A stretch of 64,000 nucleotides of DNA from Desulfatitalea sp. BRH_c12 (GTDB taxonomy: Bacteria > Desulfobacterota > Desulfobacteria > Desulfobacterales > Desulfosarcinaceae). The stretch spans positions 1 to 64,000 of the forward strand of contig LADR01000070.1 of the NCBI GenBank assembly GCA_000961655.1, read 5' to 3'. The notes beneath the pieces were generated by a model. It saw only the letters and a program-made list of their open reading frames with translations. It was not told the origin of the DNA and searched no databases. The stretch's first letter is position 1. The number at the start of each line of letters is the position of its first letter. The position numbers were made by a program, and so were the translations under genes. Positions 42,034 to 49,841 of the stretch are shown here, in pieces.

Positions 42034-43029
42034 TCAGTCGTAAATTTTTTCTGCAGATGAGAGAATATCGGCCGGGATCTGTATCCCATACTGATGCGCA
42101 GTCGCGGTATTGATCACCAGTTTTCCCTTGGCACTGCTGACGTAGGGAATCTCCGACGGATTGGTTCCGCCCAAAATCTTCAGGGCCGTTTGCGCCGCAC
42201 TCAAGCCGATGGCCTTTTCGGATGTGACAATCGCAAAAAGAGCGCCAGCCTGAACGTCTTTTTCGGCAGCCGCGATGACCGGCACGCGGGCGTTTTGAAC
42301 GGTCCAGTGCACCAGTTCCGAATCTTTCATTGCAGCACCGCTTCTTTCGACGCGACTGGTGTCGGCCAGGTAGAGCATGCCGGCATTGAATTGATTGACC
42401 TTGGCAGCCCATTGATCGAAGGTGTCTACCAGATACATGTCCATAAATTTGACTCCGGAGGCCTGCTCCAGTCTATCTGCACCGGCTCTTAGATAGTGTT
42501 TAACCCCCTGCATGGAGTCGTTGTTCTTGCTTATCAGGGCGACGGTTTTGGCACCTGTCAGCCTGCGGCCCATGGCCAGAATGTGAGGGGCGTAACTGGC
42601 GCGGGTGACGCCGGTGATGTTTGATTTGGGCAATCCCATGTCTTCCGGCTTGTCCCAGATGTAAGCGAACACCACCGGAATATCATCGATTTGTGAGCCG
42701 ACGTATTTCAACGCGGCATCCGTGAGCACAATGATCAGGTCCGGTTTGGCCGCCAGAGCCTTTGCGACAGCCGATATGCCGACGCCACGCTTGACATCAT
42801 CGTTATCCAAATCTAATTCGACGAACTGGTATTCGGGTGTGATGTTGGCACCTTTCAAGCCCTCCTTGATACCCTCAAAAACTGGCTGAAACGTACCGAT
42901 ACGCGCGGCGTTTGCTTCACCGACCCCGCATACGACGACCACCTTAGGGGCCGCCGATACGTTGCCAGCAAAAACGAACACCATGGCAATAATAACGACC
43001 AGCCACCCCGTGCAACGAAAACAATTCAT
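42034..43029 (-). CDS. ABC-type periplasmic binding protein (PF04392-like), paralog 1
   Basis: A 331-residue exported protein: signal peptide about residues 1-27 (cleavage near VSAAPK), then a two-lobed periplasmic-binding fold with KPDLIIVLTDAALKYVG, IPVVFAYIWDKPEDMGLP, NITGVTRASYAP, GAKTVALISKNNDSMQGV and the C-terminal ALFAIVTSEKAIGLSAAQTALKILGG. Relatives (ABC_sub_bind, TrpX type) bind amino acids or other small ligands; the ligand here is unknown. It is clearly duplicated with the gene at 45353-46348. No permease or ATPase is adjacent; the neighbour is a chemoreceptor. AAGGAG is 8 nt before the ATG. Confidence 0.85.
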   Translation of the reverse strand: MNCFRCTGWLVVIIAMVFVFAGNVSAAPKVVVVCGVGEANAARIGTFQPVFEGIKEGLKGANITPEYQFVELDLDNDDVKRGVGISAVAKALAAKPDLIIVLTDAALKYVGSQIDDIPVVFAYIWDKPEDMGLPKSNITGVTRASYAPHILAMGRRLTGAKTVALISKNNDSMQGVKHYLRAGADRLEQASGVKFMDMYLVDTFDQWAAKVNQFNAGMLYLADTSRVERSGAAMKDSELVHWTVQNARVPVIAAAEKDVQAGALFAIVTSEKAIGLSAAQTALKILGGTNPSEIPYVSSAKGKLVINTATAHQYGIQIPADILSSAEKIYD

Positions 43030-43135
43030 GTGTCTGCTCCTTTTTCCAGCGCTCTAATGAATTTTAGGTCGCTTACGCTTATCATACGCGGCACCTTGAC
43101 ATCAACGCATTGCAAAGCCGGCTGCCATAAAGCCA

Positions 43136-45106
43136 TTAAACCTTGAATTTGCCAACCGTGGCGTCCAGTTGGTTGGCCAGTCGGGACAGTTGTTCGGCAT
43201 TGAGGTTAACCTGGGAACTGCTGTTGGACATGTTGCCGGCGGCATGGGTCACTTCGGCAATCTCCTTGGCAATGTCGGTGGCCACCGCATGACTCTGGCC
43301 CACGTTGGTATTGACATTTCCGATCCCCTGGGAGGCTTGGGCCACGTTGCCCGCGATTTCACGGGTGGTCGTGGATTGCTCCTCCACGGCCGAGGCGATT
43401 TTGGAAACGATGTCGTTGACCGCGTTGACCACCTCGGTGATGTTGTTGATTTGTACTACCGTCATCTGGGTCGACGACTGGATCGAGGATACCTGGCGTT
43501 TGATTTCACCGGTGGCCGAGGCGGTCTGCTTGGCCAGTTCCTTGATTTCGTTGGCCACGACCGCAAACCCTTTGCCGGCATCGCCCGCGCGGGCCGCCTC
43601 GATGGTGGCATTCAGGGCCAGCAGGTTGACTTGCTCGCTGATCTCGGTGATGGTTTCCACCACTTTTCCGATCTCCTGTGCGGCGCGCCCGAGTTCGTCC
43701 ACCTGGCAGGAAGCCTCCTCGGCATGGGTCACGGCGTTGTTGGTAACGCTGCGCGCCTTTTCGGTGCTTTGGGCGATTTCACTGATCGTCACGCTCATCT
43801 CTTCCGTGGCCGAGGCAACCATGTTGATGTTGGTGGCGGCTTGCTCCATGGTGGAGGCCACCGACCCCATGTTGGCGCTCATTTCCTCGGAAGCGGAAGC
43901 CACCGATTGGGCACGTTCAGTGGTCTGGTCCGCGCCGTTGGACAGGGCCGCCGAAATTCCATACAGTTCGTTGCCCGAATGCTTGAGCTGTGCGGCATTG
44001 TTAGCGACTTCCCTGATGCTGGACTGCATTTTGTCGATGAAGACATTGAACCATCTGGCCAGATCGCCGACCTCGTCCTGACTGCTGATCTGCAACCGTT
44101 TGGTCAAATCGCCTTCCCCCTCGGCGGCATCTTTGAGCCCGGCCACCACCCGGTTAATAGGCCGGACCACTGAACCGCTGATGGCATAGATGATCAGGCC
44201 GGCCAAAACGACCATCGCCAGCGTGACCAGGAAAATTTTTTGGCCCATTGCCTTGACCGGCGCGAGAACTTCATCGGAACTGATGGTAACGGCTACGTTC
44301 CAGGGCATCGAGGGCAGTTTTTGAAAAGCGGCCCATTTGTCGATTTCCTTGAAATTGTAAGTATACAGGCCACTTTCTTTACCTTGATAATTTTTAAAAA
44401 GAGGATTGGTGCTTAGATCGTAACTCAATTCCATACTCCGGTCGGGATGGGCGATGATGCGGCCGGTCGATTCATACAGGTACGCGAAGCCGGTCTCGCC
44501 TATTTTGATGCGATCGATGAATAGTTCATCCAATCGCGCGATTTCAATGATCGCCAGAATCGCACCGGTGGTCTCCTGCTCCGGGTCGTGGATGCGGCCG
44601 GCCAGGATGAATTCCGGCGCGCCATCTGCAGGGTTTTTGTGCAGTTCGAAGGCAAAGGTGTTGCCCTCCATGATCTTTTTGAAATAGGGCTGGTCTTTGA
44701 CGGCAAGGCTGGCAGCATCCTTGTTATCGGCCGCGGCCGTTATTCGGCCGTTTTGATCGACCAGGCAGATGTTTTTGTAATAGCCATAACCTTCCTTGAG
44801 TTTGGCCAGTTGCGTGCTGGCGGACACCGCCGCCGCTTTGCCCATGAATGTGTCCTGCACGGCGTCCACATTGATTTTCTGTTGGGACCAGTTTTGCACA
44901 TCCAACTGGCGGTCCTGAATCCACCGGTCGAGCATTTCGGCCGTCAGATCGGCCATTTTCAGGATGTTGCCCCCCAATGTCTCGCTAAGCGTGTTTTTCG
45001 ACGAGACATAGGAGATGGCGGCCGATATGCCCATGCCCATAAGAATCAGAAGGACCGTGGGAATCAGGAACTTGTTGCGCAGCTTTAACGTCATCCACAG
45101 TTTCAT
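43136..45106 (-). CDS. Methyl-accepting chemotaxis protein (dCache sensor)
   Basis: A 656-residue chemoreceptor from the ATG at 45106, which has GGAG 7 nt upstream; the frame further upstream to 45217 is not used. TM1 is at about 12-32; a periplasmic dCache-type domain (about 40-280) contains the [21 protein letters not shown] and [21 protein letters not shown] halves; TM2 is at about 293-315; a HAMP linker has [26 protein letters not shown]; the signalling domain follows with the hairpin [35 protein letters not shown]. There is no C-terminal CheR-tethering pentapeptide. It sits between two paralogous binding-protein genes, suggesting indirect sensing through them. Confidence 0.95.
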
Positions 45107-45352
45107 TTTACGACTCCATTTGGGAACGGCTTGCCGAATGCAATGAGCATTACAGAAGCCGTTGGAAAAGCGTGTTAAAAGATACCAAGCGCCGTTACAA
45201 AGGATAAATCGGCTCATCAGTCACGGAGTATGCAGTAAAATCCACTACGGTCACATCCGAAGGCTTACGAACCCGTTAAGGCGTGAGCAGTGATCGCACA
45301 ATCTTCGAGTAGAGAGGCCGCTATCTCGCGGCTTTCCCAATCCGGAATGTGT

Positions 45353-46348
45353 CTATTCGTAAATTTTTCCGGCTGATGCCAAAATGTCGTAAGGGATATC
45401 CAGTTTGTACTTCTGGGCCGTTTTCGCATTGATCACCAGTTTGCCGGTGGCGCTGGAGACATAGGGGATATCGGCCGGCTTGGCGCCGCCGAGTATTTTC
45501 AAGGCTATTTCCGCAGCATTCAAGCCGATCCCCTTTTCGGAAGTAACGATCGCAAACAGCGCGCCGGCTTGGATATCTTTTTCGGAACCGGCAATGACCG
45601 GCACCTGAGCGTTTTCAACGGTCCAGCGCACCAGGTCGGCATCTTTCATCGCGACACCCTCTTTTTCGATGCGTGTGGTATCGGCCAGATAGATCAGGTC
45701 GGCCGGAAAGGTTTGGACCTTGTTTTCCCATTCGGCAAAGGTATCCAGCAGGTACATGTCCAGAAATTTGATCCCCGAAGCCTGCTCCAGTTTATCGGCA
45801 CCGACCGTCAGATATTGCTTGACGCCGGCCATGGAGGTACTGCTCTTGCTGAGCAGGGCCACCGTCTTAGCGCCGGTCAGCTTGCGAGCCATGGTCCAGA
45901 TGTCGGCGGCATAACTGCGTCGCGTAACGCCGGTGATATTTGCCTTGGGCAACCCCAGTGCTTCCGGTTGGCCCCAGATCCAGGCAAATACGACCGGGAT
46001 TTCATCGATATTCGAGCCAACAAACTTGAGACAATTGTCATCTAAACTGATAACCAAGTCAGGCTTGGCCGCTCTGATTCTGGCGATGGCCTCGATTCCC
46101 GCCGATGCTTTGGCCTCATCGTTTTCCAAGGTATCTAGATCGACATAATGGAACTCGGGCTCGATTTGCTGTGTCTTTAAACCTTCCTTGATGCCTTCAT
46201 ATACCGGCGGATAGGTGCCGACGCGCGCAGCGGTGGACTCAGTGACTCCTGATACGACAACTACTTTTTTAGCCCCCATGGCGTTGCCCGCCAACACCGC
46301 AAGCGACAACATGCACACCATCAAACATGTTTTGCTGAAAACTTTCAT
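45353..46348 (-). CDS. ABC-type periplasmic binding protein (PF04392-like), paralog 2
   Basis: A 331-residue exported protein very similar throughout to the one at 42034-43029, for example GVKQYLTVGADKLEQASG, DMYLLDTFAEWENKV, VPVIAGSEKDIQAGALFAIVTSEKGIGL and IPYVSSATGKLVIN. Signal peptide about 1-26. ATG at 46348 is preferred over the one at 46354 because AAGGAG then has normal spacing. It is first of three genes reading leftward (binding protein, chemoreceptor, binding protein) with gaps of 246 and 106 nt. Ligand unknown. Confidence 0.85.
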   Translation of the reverse strand: MKVFSKTCLMVCMLSLAVLAGNAMGAKKVVVVSGVTESTAARVGTYPPVYEGIKEGLKTQQIEPEFHYVDLDTLENDEAKASAGIEAIARIRAAKPDLVISLDDNCLKFVGSNIDEIPVVFAWIWGQPEALGLPKANITGVTRRSYAADIWTMARKLTGAKTVALLSKSSTSMAGVKQYLTVGADKLEQASGIKFLDMYLLDTFAEWENKVQTFPADLIYLADTTRIEKEGVAMKDADLVRWTVENAQVPVIAGSEKDIQAGALFAIVTSEKGIGLNAAEIALKILGGAKPADIPYVSSATGKLVINAKTAQKYKLDIPYDILASAGKIYE

Positions 46349-46865
46349 GAACATCTCCTTGTTTCTGATTCCAGTTAATTTCCATAAATGGTTTTATACA
46401 GAGCAGATGAAAAGCCATCCGATCCAATGCTGCATTCAAAAATGGATGCTAACAACATCAACACACCCTGAAAATTCAGCGTGCTGAAGTTTTTTCATGG
46501 GCTTCAATGTGTAAGCGATACTGTTTCTATCGGAAGACTTGGAAAAAAAGTTTAGGAGAATCATCGCCTCGGAAGAGACAATCTTCTGGGGATAACTATT
46601 TGGAACAGCCGGGTGAACCTAATTGCCTTCTGTGATAGTACGATTTGATCTTCGGTTGGTAGATATGAAAACTTGATTAAGAAATAATTTGTGGCTGGCA
46701 TTCAGTAATTGATGTGAAAATGAGTGGTGGGGTGGAGATCACGGGTCGATGGCGGCTCCGTTTGGTAAGGAGCCACCATGCGATCCGTCTGAACGCACGA
46801 CCGTCACATCACCCGTGCAGTCGTAATGTTCCCCGTGGTGAATGAACCCTTTTACGCGTTCACCA
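46349..46865. other. Intergenic region between aroG and the binding-protein gene
   Basis: About 515 bases with no gene. A GC-rich hairpin at 46751-46777 (GGCGGCTCC/GGAGCCACC, 9 bp with a wobble) lies about 90 nt past the aroG stop and may end its transcript, though it lacks a T tract. A small TTCAGC/GCTGAA palindrome followed by GTTTTTT lies near 46477-46497 on the plus strand. Confidence 0.4.
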
Positions 46866-47912
46866 TTATTTGGCTTCACGCATTCTGTCGTGGGCCCAAA
46901 GGATCAGTTCTTCCGTGGTTTCCCAGGAGATGCATGAATCGGTGATCGACACGCCATACGCCATGTCGTTGAGGTCGCCGGTGTTTTTCTGATTTCCTTC
47001 AAACAGGTTGCTTTCAAGCATCATGCCGACAATAACCCGATTGCCTGAGATGCGCTGACTGATCACATCTTTCCAAACCACGGCTTGTTCCTTGTAGTGT
47101 TTGCGTGAATTGGCGTGCGAACAATCCACCACGGCAGCCTCCGGCAGCTTTTTATCGCGCAGCATGTCTGACACTTCACGGATGCTGCAGGAGTCATAGT
47201 TGGGACGTCGGCCGCCGCGCAGGACCAGATGCGCGAACGGATTGCCGGTAGTACTGACCACGCTGGCTTTTCCGTTGTGATCGATTCCGAGAAAATGTTG
47301 CGGTGAGGAGGCTGCGATCATGGCATTGATAGCCACCGACAGGTTGCCGTCCGTTCCGTTCTTGAATCCCACCGGCATGGAAAGACCGCTGGCCATTTCA
47401 CGGTGCGTCTGGGATTCGGTCGTTCGCGCACCGATTGCCGCCCAGCAGACCAGTCCGGCGATATATTGCGGAATGAATGGATCGAGCAGTTCGGTCGCCG
47501 TTGGCAGACCCATGGCGGTGACCTCGCCCAGAAGACGACGGGCCTTTCGCAGGCCGCCGATCATGTCATAGGAGTCATCCAGGTTGGGATCGTTGATCAA
47601 CCCTTTCCACCCCACCGTCGTGCGCGGTTTCTCAAAATAGACGCGCATGACAAGCACCATGGTTTCTTGCACGCGCTGCTGGAGAGCCTTCAGGCGAACG
47701 GCGTAGTCCAGAGCCGCCTTTTCGTCATGGATCGAGCAAGGCCCCGTTATCACCATCAAGCTCGGGTTCTGGCCGGTAATGATATCCTGGATCGTTTTGC
47801 GGCCTTGCAGAACAGTTTCGGCTGACGCTTCGCTGATGGGCAGTTCCTCTTTGAGTGCGTCCGGGGAAATGAGGGGGGTGAAGTCTTTGATGCGGACATC
47901 GTATGTCTTCAT
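46866..47912 (-). CDS. aroG: 3-deoxy-7-phosphoheptulonate (DAHP) synthase, class I
   Basis: A 348-residue class I (AroF/G/H-type) DAHP synthase, which condenses phosphoenolpyruvate with erythrose 4-phosphate, the first step of the shikimate route to Phe, Tyr and Trp. Motifs: ITGPCSIHD, RVYFEKPRTTVGWKGLINDP, GARTTESQTHREMASGLSMPVGFKNGTDG, DCSHANSRK and the C-terminal GVSITDSCISWE. ATG at 47912 has AGGAG 9 nt upstream; the seven residues before it in the open frame are not used. The gene is preceded by a promoter, a Tyr-rich leader ORF and a terminator hairpin, so control by tyrosyl-tRNA attenuation is inferred. No other aro gene is adjacent. Confidence 0.96.
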   Translation of the reverse strand: MKTYDVRIKDFTPLISPDALKEELPISEASAETVLQGRKTIQDIITGQNPSLMVITGPCSIHDEKAALDYAVRLKALQQRVQETMVLVMRVYFEKPRTTVGWKGLINDPNLDDSYDMIGGLRKARRLLGEVTAMGLPTATELLDPFIPQYIAGLVCWAAIGARTTESQTHREMASGLSMPVGFKNGTDGNLSVAINAMIAASSPQHFLGIDHNGKASVVSTTGNPFAHLVLRGGRRPNYDSCSIREVSDMLRDKKLPEAAVVDCSHANSRKHYKEQAVVWKDVISQRISGNRVIVGMMLESNLFEGNQKNTGDLNDMAYGVSITDSCISWETTEELILWAHDRMREAK

Positions 47913-47962
47913 GATCAGCTCCTGTGTGTGCAAAAGCCTCGAAGACGATGGGTGCGGATTTT

Positions 47963-48001
47963 AAAAAAAGAAAAGCCGCAGCCTGATCGCCTGCGGCTTT
48001 T
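47963..48001 (-). terminator. Attenuator terminator in the aroG leader
   Basis: On the minus strand AAAAGCCGCAG (48001-47991) and CTGCGGCTTTT (47981-47971) form a perfect 11-bp stem with a 9-nt loop, followed by C and seven T residues (47969-47963). It ends about 50 nt before the aroG ATG. No other minus-strand gene lies upstream for about 2.9 kb, so it must act on the aroG leader transcript. The 5' arm can pair instead with an upstream segment (see the finding). Confidence 0.92.
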
Positions 48002-48018
48002 TGCTGAAAGAATGTTTG

Positions 48019-48102
48019 TCAGCGAACCCCAGGCAAGGCGCTATAATAGTAATAATAATAAAAATAGTAATAAAGTGCTTTGCCAGGGAGTAGGGCGGAC
48101 AT
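48019..48102 (-). CDS. Tyr-rich leader peptide of the aroG attenuator
   Basis: A 27-codon ORF, ATG at 48102 to TGA at 48019, encoding MSALLPGKAL-YYYFYYYYYY-SALPGVR. Codons 11-20 (48072-48043) are nine Tyr codons (seven TAT, two TAC) and one Phe codon (TTT). AAGG lies 7 nt before the ATG. Translation would stall on the run when charged tRNA-Tyr is scarce. RNA segments bracketing the run (48088-48080 and 48036-48028) can pair, and the second can alternatively pair with the terminator's 5' arm. This is the arrangement of Phe, His and Trp leader peptides in enterobacteria, but with tyrosine as the signal. The ORF is too short to be found by length; it is called from reading the strand directly. 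Confidence 0.85.
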   Translation of the reverse strand: MSALLPGKALYYYFYYYYYYSALPGVR

Positions 48103-48134
48103 TGTCAAACCTTGTTTGAGGTTTACGATGGTGC

Positions 48135-48164
48135 ATAATAATCAGATTGATCATGCTATGTCAA
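48135..48164 (-). promoter_or_regulatory. Promoter of the aroG leader transcript
   Basis: On the minus strand TTGACA (48164-48159) and TATTAT (48140-48135) are separated by 18 nt, near the sigma-70 consensus. Transcription would begin near 48128, about 26 nt before the leader-peptide ATG and roughly 215 nt before aroG. Confidence 0.75.
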
Positions 48165-48314
48165 ACGGATTTTGCAGCGTACCAGGATTACCGCATTTGG
48201 GAATTCATATTCTTTAGGACTTCTCACTATAGTGTTTCGAAAAGCTGCCATTCACCATAGGTGCGGACCTGAGGGGGGACACCCACTCGGCCCTTGATTT
48301 CGTTCCACCTGTAG

Positions 48315-48333
48315 GGGCGACCGGCGGTCGCCC
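48315..48333. repeat. GGGCGACC palindrome, copy at 48.3 kb
   Basis: The 19-bp GGGCGACC-GGC-GGTCGCCC is identical to 9337-9355. Here the wider unit is GTAGGGG...CCCGGTGCG (48311-48339). It lies directly at the truncated edge of the LivG remnant. Confidence 0.75.
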
Positions 48334-48342
48334 GGTGCGATG

Positions 48343-48658
48343 GAACGCGCATTTCGGGGATGTCCCCCCACAAAATTGCGCAACTGGGCATCGCGCGCAC
48401 GTTCCAGGTGCCACGCACGTTTCCCAGCCTCACGGTTCAGGAGTGCATTGGCGTAGGGGCGCGCTTTGGCGACAATGAAAGCTTTGACCCCGAGGGCGTG
48501 GACAAAATAATCGATTTTATGGATCCGGGCCAAGAACATCACCGCATGGCGGGCGAACTTCATCCCCGGCCGAAACAGGTCGGGGATGGAGCCTACTTTG
48601 ATGAAGCCTGCATTCGTGAAATGACTCGCCAAACGCCGGCCTACACCCCCTCAAGCTG
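48343..48658 (+). pseudogene. Decayed fragment of a LivG-like branched-chain amino acid ABC ATPase
   Basis: The plus-strand frame reads ISGMSPHKIAQLGIARTFQ then VPRTFPSLTVQECIGVGARFGDN and later EGVDKIIDFMD, matching the region after Walker A up to the helical domain of LivG-type ATPases. The Walker A half, signature motif and Walker B are missing; the match fades after about residue 70 of the fragment. It has no start-codon context of its own. The left edge abuts a dispersed palindrome. No other liv genes are near, so this is a remnant of a deleted or rearranged locus. Confidence 0.5.
48561..48588. repeat. Hairpin in the LivG remnant region
   Basis: ATCCCCGGCC...GGTCGGGGAT forms a 10-bp stem with one wobble and a GAAACA loop. 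No T tract. It may be a small inserted palindrome or chance within the decaying gene. Confidence 0.4.
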
Positions 48659-48845: not shown

Positions 48846-49841
48846 ATGAGAGGTTTTAATATCGGCAAATTTGCAATGGCGGCAGCCATTGTGGCGATAA
48901 TGTGCGTACCTGTTTCAGCGGCGGCCGCTGAAAAGGGCGAAAAGGACAAGGCACCGGCCAATGCGGCCACGATCAACGGGGAAGGCATTGCATACAAGGA
49001 CTTTGACTGGGAAGTGGCGCTTTATTCAAAACGGATGCAGGCTCAGGGAAAGCAGATTCCGGAAGAGTTCCAAGGGCAAGTTAAAAAGGACGTTCTCAAC
49101 GATATGATCAGCCGTGAACTGATCTTGCAGGAAAGTAAAAAAAAAGGCATTAAGGTCGACCCGCAATTTGTCCAAAAAGAAATTTCGGCCATCCAGATGC
49201 GTTATGAGGATCCTGAGCAGTTCAAAAAAGCATTGGCTGAAATGAATATGACCGAGGACGCTTTAAAAAAACAGATTACTCAGCGCTCTGCCATCCGCGA
49301 CTTGATCGATAAGGAAGTTGCCTCCAAAATCACCGTTTCGGATAAGGACACCAAAGCTTTTTATGATGAAAATCCGAGCTTGTTTAAACGGCCCGAAGAG
49401 GTTCATGCCCAACATATCCTGATTAAATCGGAAGCCGATGCGGAAGAAAAGCAGAAAAAGGCATCACGCCAAACACTGGTCGATATTAAAAAGAAAATAG
49501 ATGCTGGCGAAGATTTCGGAGCATTGGCCAAGGCCCATTCCCAATGCCCCAGCGCTCAAAACAATGGTGACTTGGGCAGTTTCTCCAAAGGTAAAATGGT
49601 GCCGGCCTTCGAAACCGCGGCATTCGCGCTGAAGCCCGGTCAGGTAAGCGACATCGTTGAGACCAATTTCGGGTATCACCTGATTAAAGTGCTTGAGCAC
49701 AGTGACCCGCAAACCTTGAAGTACGAAGAGGTCCAACCCAAAATTAATGCCAGTTTACGTAACCAGAAAGTGCAGACGGAAGTCCAGAAATATGTAGAAG
49801 AATTGCGCAAGTCAGCCAAAATTGAGATCTTCGTCAAATAA
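48846..49841 (+). CDS. Exported peptidyl-prolyl isomerase (parvulin, PpiC/SurA-like)
   Basis: A 331-residue periplasmic chaperone. Signal peptide about 1-28; an N-terminal helical SurA-like domain (about 40-165); a parvulin domain (about 180-285) with EEVHAQHILIKSEADAEEKQKKA, DFGALAKAHSQCPSAQNNGDLGSFSKGKMVPAFETAAFAL and TNFGYHLIKVL; and a C-terminal helix returning to the chaperone domain. It catalyses proline isomerisation and assists folding of exported or outer-membrane proteins. AAAGGAG lies upstream of the ATG. A single gene with its own promoter. Confidence 0.93.
   Translation: MRGFNIGKFAMAAAIVAIMCVPVSAAAAEKGEKDKAPANAATINGEGIAYKDFDWEVALYSKRMQAQGKQIPEEFQGQVKKDVLNDMISRELILQESKKKGIKVDPQFVQKEISAIQMRYEDPEQFKKALAEMNMTEDALKKQITQRSAIRDLIDKEVASKITVSDKDTKAFYDENPSLFKRPEEVHAQHILIKSEADAEEKQKKASRQTLVDIKKKIDAGEDFGALAKAHSQCPSAQNNGDLGSFSKGKMVPAFETAAFALKPGQVSDIVETNFGYHLIKVLEHSDPQTLKYEEVQPKINASLRNQKVQTEVQKYVEELRKSAKIEIFVK

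Follow-up and report, generated by a model that had tools for sequence, protein, structure and literature searches.

A type Ia DAHP synthase (DAHPS) gene of Desulfatitalea sp. BRH_c12 is very probably controlled by a ribosome-mediated transcription attenuator whose sensor reads charged tRNA-Tyr and has a small Phe component. The locus lies in a stretch of 64,000 nucleotides, hereafter the window, which maps to contig 49 of a 91-contig genome. Judged by its sequence features and those of its relatives, it is a real, conserved leader-peptide attenuator whose sensor is dominated by Tyr codons within the genus. We also lean, with some reserve, towards a broader reading in which a family of leader attenuators with an exchangeable codon-run sensor runs aromatic biosynthesis in Desulfobacterota and beyond. 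In this reading the same four-segment switch would serve the entry enzymes DAHPS Ia, DAHPS Ib and AroA' as well as downstream genes, and where a genome has several DAHP synthases its codons would allot each isoenzyme to an end product (Ia to Tyr, Ib to Trp).

All elements of the leader lie on the minus strand. The regulated gene (46866..47912) starts at ATG 47912, with AGGAG 5' of it, and encodes a protein of 348 aa that matches TIGR00034 (aroFGH) at 467 bits (cut-off 173) as well as PF00793, in agreement with the DAHP synthase assignment of the first-pass annotation. Upstream of this gene, an AAGG ribosome site (48110..48113) is found 7 nt 5' of the ATG (48102) of a leader ORF, MSALLPGKALYYYFYYYYYYSALPGVR, which by translation comprises 27 codons followed by TGA (48019..48102). 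Codons 11-20 (48043..48072) form an uninterrupted aromatic sensor run, YYYFYYYYYY, with 9 Tyr and 1 Phe. In the minimum-energy (MFE) fold, segment 1, CCCTGGCAA (48080..48088), encloses the codon run by pairing with segment 2 (48088-48080 with 48036-48028). Segment 2, CCTTGCCTGGGGT (48026..48038), encodes part of ..ALPGV.. immediately 5' of the leader stop codon. Segment 3, GCCGCAGGCGATC (47985..47997), can take as its partner either segment 2, giving an antiterminator, or segment 4, giving a terminator. The terminator hairpin (47971..48001) has a GC-rich 11-bp stem (48001-47991 / 47981-47971) and a 9-nt loop, and is followed by the U tract CTTTTTTT (47963..47970). A simple terminator scan missed this hairpin, probably because the scan rule allowed loops of 3-8 nt. 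Every sequence element listed in the first-pass annotation, from promoter and AAGG through the 27-codon ORF, the run of ten aromatic codons and the 11-bp stem with its U tract to the aroG ribosome site and start codon, was found in place, and the 1:2 pairing stands as it was written there.

The Tyr run is a rare object. Six consecutive Tyr codons gave one match in the window and none in 100 shuffles, and a search for five consecutive Tyr codons on both strands and in any frame of the 6.0-Mb genome returned the leader run as the sole site (two overlapping matches), with no match for the reversed-pattern control. None of 200 dinucleotide shuffles folds as well as the 224-nt leader (z -3.4). A sigma-70-like promoter, TTGACA-18-TATTAT (48135..48164), is proposed from its match to the consensus alone (11 of 12 letters); it ranks first among the 6 promoter-like sites found within 4 kb, where 3.4 are expected by chance. 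Conservation of a promoter in relatives appears weak: the best score per locus upstream of the leader averaged 8.2, versus 7.6 in shuffles (26 relatives), and a site of at least 9 letters was found in 4 of 7 leaders of the genus. A 7-bp hairpin predicted at 48125-48106 holds the leader AAGG in its 3' arm, and might damp leader translation.

We infer promoter use, leader translation, stalling, antitermination and a Tyr response, which would act together as follows. When Tyr is plentiful, the ribosome would reach the stop codon and cover segment 2, leaving segments 3 and 4 to form the terminator, and transcription would stop near 47963. Under Tyr shortage the ribosome would stall within the run; at codons 11-18 segment 2 would stay free and pair with segment 3 as it emerges, so that the terminator would be blocked and the gene transcribed. 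If the leader were not translated at all, 1:2 and 3:4 would form and transcription would again stop.

The geometry of this switch was computed with the ribosome edge assumed to lie 15 nt downstream of the A-site codon. With the A site at codons 11-18, segment 2 is free, and nascent RNA reaching to the end of segment 3 folds into the 2:3 pairing with 10 pairs; under the same footprint, 2:3 forms for these stalls before segment 4 is made. Four pairs of 2:3 are left when the A site is at codon 20, and none from codon 21 to the stop. On this assumed footprint, then, segment 2 is covered once the ribosome has reached the stop codon and exposed while it is still within the run. When the RNA is complete, the terminator has the lowest energy at each of the 13 stall positions for which folds were computed (3:4 by itself, -19.9 kcal/mol; 2:3 duplex, -18.6 kcal/mol). 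Because the terminator is the stable fold there, the switch must be kinetic and operate during transcription, as it does in the textbook model of attenuation.

Conservation was assessed in 60 relatives, 36 of which have a protein match, and the 30 best orthologue loci were examined for leaders. An aromatic-run leader ORF with a terminator was found in 27 of these 30 loci, with an in-frame ATG in 25 of the 27 ORFs. Leaders end in ..G-L-P-G-V-R, ..R-G-A-P-V-V-R/C or similar before the stop codon, followed by a terminator of the GCCGC(A/G)GGC type. These 27 loci also keep the codon run, all three mutually exclusive pairings and a segment 2 placed immediately 5' of the stop codon. The remaining three DAHPS Ia orthologues (L006, from the same genus, L018 and L031) have no leader within 1.5 kb. 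Six of the seven leaders of the genus are dominated by Tyr, with Tyr+Phe counts in the run of 9+1, 6+1, 7+1, 7+1, 7+2 and 5+3; the seventh (L012, G004) is dominated by Phe (1 Tyr and 5 Phe). None of the seven runs contains a Trp codon. Upstream regions of a second DAHPS Ia paralogue (about 52% identical) or of similar weaker matches gave a convincing leader in 1 of 10 cases (L163), and no aromatic-run leader was found within 500 nt upstream of the chorismate-mutase genes of the genus (0 of 7 loci).

In the alignment of the 27 orthologue leaders (A1), the antiterminator corresponds to columns 56-68 with 107-119 and the terminator to columns 105-115 with 129-139. Standard pairs fill 81.7% of antiterminator cells, versus 30-45% after the columns are slid by 1-3 positions. 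Both sides are changed in 20 cells, versus 9.3 by shuffling, and none of 500 shuffles reached 20; counted by pair, 4 of 13 have changes on both sides, and 150 of 500 shuffles had as many. In the terminator, 97.3% of cells are paired and 6 of 11 pairs have both sides changed. Column 112, which holds A or G, covaries with each of its two partners: with 63 for the antiterminator and with 132 for the terminator. The 5' arm of the terminator is common to the two pairings, which are therefore mutually exclusive, as covariation and folding competition also indicate. The first-pass annotation had drawn 2:3 as 48040-48033 with 47994-47988. The pairing exists, at slightly shifted coordinates: relatives keep 48038-48026 with 47997-47985, the best duplex in the window, and the earlier version was dropped. 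The proposal of classical leader-peptide attenuation was not refuted by the comparison of orthologues for Tyr codons and compensatory changes, and the run, the exclusive pairings and the place of segment 2 all argue for it.

The device turns up in many genomes when searched for with a covariance model (R1) built on the 27 leaders with the terminator as its only structure: the model has matches in 241 of 291 genomes of the order (E ≤ 0.01; 156 of 173 among good genomes) and in 165 of 395 genomes of a phylum sample (E ≤ 0.001). Matches chosen for inspection were the best-scoring among the matches listed rather than a random sample, and include some leaders used to train R1; 122 came from the order (30 automatic, 90 hand-chosen and 2 from the phylum sample) and 78 from outside it (18 automatic and 60 hand-chosen). 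Among the high-scoring matches inspected in the order, 120 of 122 precede aromatic-pathway genes: 56 AroA', 55 DAHPS Ia, 7 PheA, 1 AroE and 1 PheA with AroE. The other two have no assigned target, one of them lying at a contig end. AroA' is the ADH synthase (TIGR01949, PF01791), an alternative entry enzyme, and its 56 loci were found though absent from R1 training. Outside the order, 63 of 78 inspected matches precede aromatic-pathway genes, namely DAHPS Ib (24), AroA' (16), DAHPS Ia (10), shikimate kinase (11, of which 9 are followed by chorismate synthase), chorismate synthase (1) and 3-dehydroquinate synthase II (1). Genes for ABC substrate-binding (4), metallo-beta-lactamase-fold (3) and acyl-CoA synthetase (2) proteins and an aminotransferase (1) follow other matches, and 5 are without assignment. 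As the downstream gene plays no part in R1, these targets are independent evidence of function. The device is thus far wider than one gene, extending to AroA', DAHPS Ib, AroK, AroC, PheA and AroE. That entry enzymes of the PF00793 and PF01791 families share the leader design suggests that regulation was kept while the enzyme was exchanged.

Beyond the phylum, 78 of 80 named loci had enough upstream sequence and were scanned with a loose rule. An aromatic-run ORF was present in 20 of the 78; in several of these, from cyanobacteria, a fitting terminator is plainly missing. Inspection by eye recognized a leader with a terminator in 8 of 14 Chloroflexota-type loci and in one Latescibacterota locus (L201); leaders of this kind precede DAHP synthase at L193, L194, L201, L214, L219, L222, L226, L231 and L245. 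The device is therefore not limited to Desulfobacterota.

The pairings were further compared within genomes and between them in 112 leaders of the order, in a test that leaves shared ancestry in. For 1:2, segments of the same leader pair at -19.9 kcal/mol, versus -16.7 when swapped between genomes, and the own pairing beats the median swap in 87%; the corresponding values for 2:3 are -21.3 versus -19.5 kcal/mol and 73%. When swaps were confined to one target class, own 1:2 was better in 44 of 51 DAHPS Ia and 43 of 49 AroA' leaders, and own 2:3 in 37 of 51 and 34 of 49, respectively. Three of four spacer controls were flat, and the fourth (AroA', 1:spacer) was nominally positive (p 0.024). The 1:2 protector stem is thus indicated by the swap tests as well as by the minimum-energy fold. 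The run and terminator rule failed to parse 25 of the 200 inspected matches, 10 of the 122 from the order and 15 of the 78 from outside it, and these are absent from the swap tests and from the codon compositions that follow.

Codon composition follows the target, to judge by the runs that could be parsed. In the order, runs before DAHPS Ia hold 0.58 Tyr, 0.37 Phe and 0.05 Trp (n=52), those before AroA' 0.52 Tyr, 0.38 Phe and 0.10 Trp (n=49, 37 with a Trp codon), and those before PheA 0.38 Tyr, 0.60 Phe and 0.02 Trp (n=7); leaders of ABC substrate-binding genes outside the order are 0.86 Phe (n=4). Tyr dominates only in the window's genus, and elsewhere the runs mix Tyr, Phe and some Trp. The description "tyrosine-tuned" given in the first-pass annotation therefore fits the window and six of the seven genus leaders, but not the DAHPS Ia leaders of the order at large.

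The window's genome encodes three DAHP synthases: the type Ia enzyme, a type Ib enzyme followed by aroB (contig 74, L002 1050-3379), and a fusion of type Ib DAHP synthase with prephenate dehydratase and ACT domains (contig 66, L001 1243-3105). A Trp-codon leader, MTAFGNIQFLGLWWRFTLWRVVPLG, and a terminator lie upstream of the type Ib gene, and the 2:3 pairing of this leader reaches -25.9 kcal/mol, versus a shuffled mean of -15.9, with 2 of 200 shuffles as good. Orthologues of this gene carry a Trp-containing leader in 8 of 9 loci of the genus and 15 of 23 of the family (17 counting two less clear cases). Of the 15, 13 have a 2:3 pairing better than shuffled; L340 and L360 were no better, the automatic choice of terminator having failed. 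The same genome has a WWW leader, MNTNWWWRLWCIRACGALPIV, before trpE (L065, contig 26, near 193865), matched by R1 at 31.6 bits; a simple pairing test, in which the leader end was placed one base off, did not support this leader (-19.4 versus -18.6, with 69 of 200 shuffles as good). No leader was seen by eye at the fusion gene. Leader codons thus seem to assign isoenzymes to end products, Tyr to Ia and Trp to Ib. In E. coli, Tyr inhibits AroF, Phe AroG and Trp AroH, and TyrR and TrpR control expression, according to the available text of PMC5343134, whereas in the attenuator-family reading the division would be made by leader codons. A link between Trp codons in the leader of the entry enzyme and the lack of a DAHPS Ib gene was considered and is unsupported (Fisher p 0.097, 27 leaders, 60 genomes; p 1.0 outside the window's family). 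The proposed attenuator offers a directly testable account of entry control into aromatic biosynthesis in a large group of anaerobes. Nature also supplies leaders whose switch is constant while the codon run varies (Tyr, Phe, Trp), making the link between codon and sensed amino acid readable and testable.

Several other explanations of the leader were weighed. The leader RNA might be a T-box, or bind a tRNA or ligand in some other way, and merely happen to contain an ORF; in other bacteria aromatic genes do carry T-boxes specific for Tyr, as far as the accessible literature describes them. No Rfam family exceeded its gathering score in 47800-48400, however, where the 11 matches were at chance level and included no T-box, and along with the pairings, relatives keep the codon run and a stop codon in the same place, which leaves this explanation with almost no credit. 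Only slightly better, and still very improbable, is the idea that the hairpin terminates an upstream gene or a small RNA and that the ORF arose by chance. The weak conservation of the promoter would suit it, but the nearest substantial upstream gene (48846-49841) runs in the opposite direction, the leader recurs in 27 of 30 loci, and the terminator 5' arm covaries with both of its partners (column 112 with 63 and 132). The leader peptide itself could arrest the ribosome as a TnaC-like sensor of free tyrosine, with the ..LPGVR end as arrest motif. We consider this highly unlikely: the ..G-L-P-G-V-R end is conserved in peptide and RNA alike, yet the same nucleotides are segment 2, which varies with segment 3, and in other groups the end reads RGAPVVR/C or GLPMG, as expected if it is the RNA pairing that is kept.

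A general aromatic attenuator, possible though in our view rather doubtful, would sense any shortage of Phe, Tyr or sometimes Trp, and the Tyr richness of the genus would reflect drift among UAY and UUY codons. The mixed runs before DAHPS Ia and AroA' in the order fit such a sensor, as does the Phe-dominated genus leader L012. Against it, six of the seven genus leaders are Tyr-dominated and lack Trp, while DAHPS Ib of the same genomes has Trp leaders (8 of 9), and the lean towards Phe before PheA and ABC substrate-binding genes indicates that composition follows the target.

The attenuator proposed here is classical in kind; as far as could be checked, its sensor, target range and isoenzyme division are new. 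It shares with the E. coli pheL-pheA and trpL-trp attenuators the codon run, the 1:2, 2:3 and 3:4 pairings and a stop codon beside segment 2. Those systems read Phe or Trp before genes of the end branches, whereas the window's leader precedes the first common step. In Corynebacterium glutamicum, Neshat et al. (2014) reportedly described the aroR leader of the aroF operon. In the accessible portions of the sources, this DAHP synthase operon is controlled by attenuation through a leader with Phe-Tyr-Phe (PMC11802643, PMC4046766), which reportedly reacts to limiting Phe but not to the supply of Tyr (PMC11802643). By design it resembles the window's leader, as a leader peptide with aromatic codons and attenuation before DAHP synthase, but as described there it has only Phe-Tyr-Phe, versus 9 Tyr of 10 here. 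Because that leader is reported to be Phe- and not Tyr-responsive, codons alone do not prove a Tyr response.

Attenuators have also been predicted computationally. For aroF of Shewanella, a gamma-proteobacterium, an attenuator "sensing tyr-tRNA" is listed as a computational prediction in the available table (PMC2659441 Table 3, citing Camakaris 1980); it shares Tyr and DAHP synthase with the window's leader. Putative attenuators are also given, in the parts of the source at hand, for aroF-tyrA type operons of Vibrio (PMC1173090) and upstream of the aroA'-aroB'-pheA-aroF-tyrA-trp cluster of Desulfovibrio vulgaris (Merino database, PMC1173090 Table 7). The latter belongs to the delta group, the window's phylum in the wide sense, and concerns the first genes of the aromatic pathway, with AroA' a target here as well; as tabulated it is a database prediction. 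The novelty is accordingly smaller than the first-pass annotation claimed, given the published C. glutamicum leader and the computed attenuators of Shewanella, Vibrio and D. vulgaris. An aromatic attenuator family in Desulfobacterota was not found in the accessible part of the open literature, subscription journals being mostly outside its scope. A Tyr-specific response of the window's leader, if true, would be the first shown case as far as we found.

Some inspected matches stand before genes of other kinds. At L304, L312, L318 and L332, Phe-rich candidate leaders precede genes for branched-chain-type periplasmic-binding proteins, which perhaps serve aromatic amino acid uptake. Tyr-rich leaders at L272 and L298, the latter with eight consecutive Tyr, are separated by about 300 nt from a downstream gene for an ADP-forming acyl-CoA synthetase subunit, perhaps a hint that aryl acids are a source of aromatic amino acids. 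Aromatic leaders were also seen before a metallo-beta-lactamase-fold gene at L276, L288 and L293. In the window itself, the region downstream of aroG (42034-46354, minus strand) encodes a chemoreceptor (dCache, HAMP, MCP signal) between two ABC_sub_bind proteins, both weakly TrpX-like and under the cut-off of the TrpX model.
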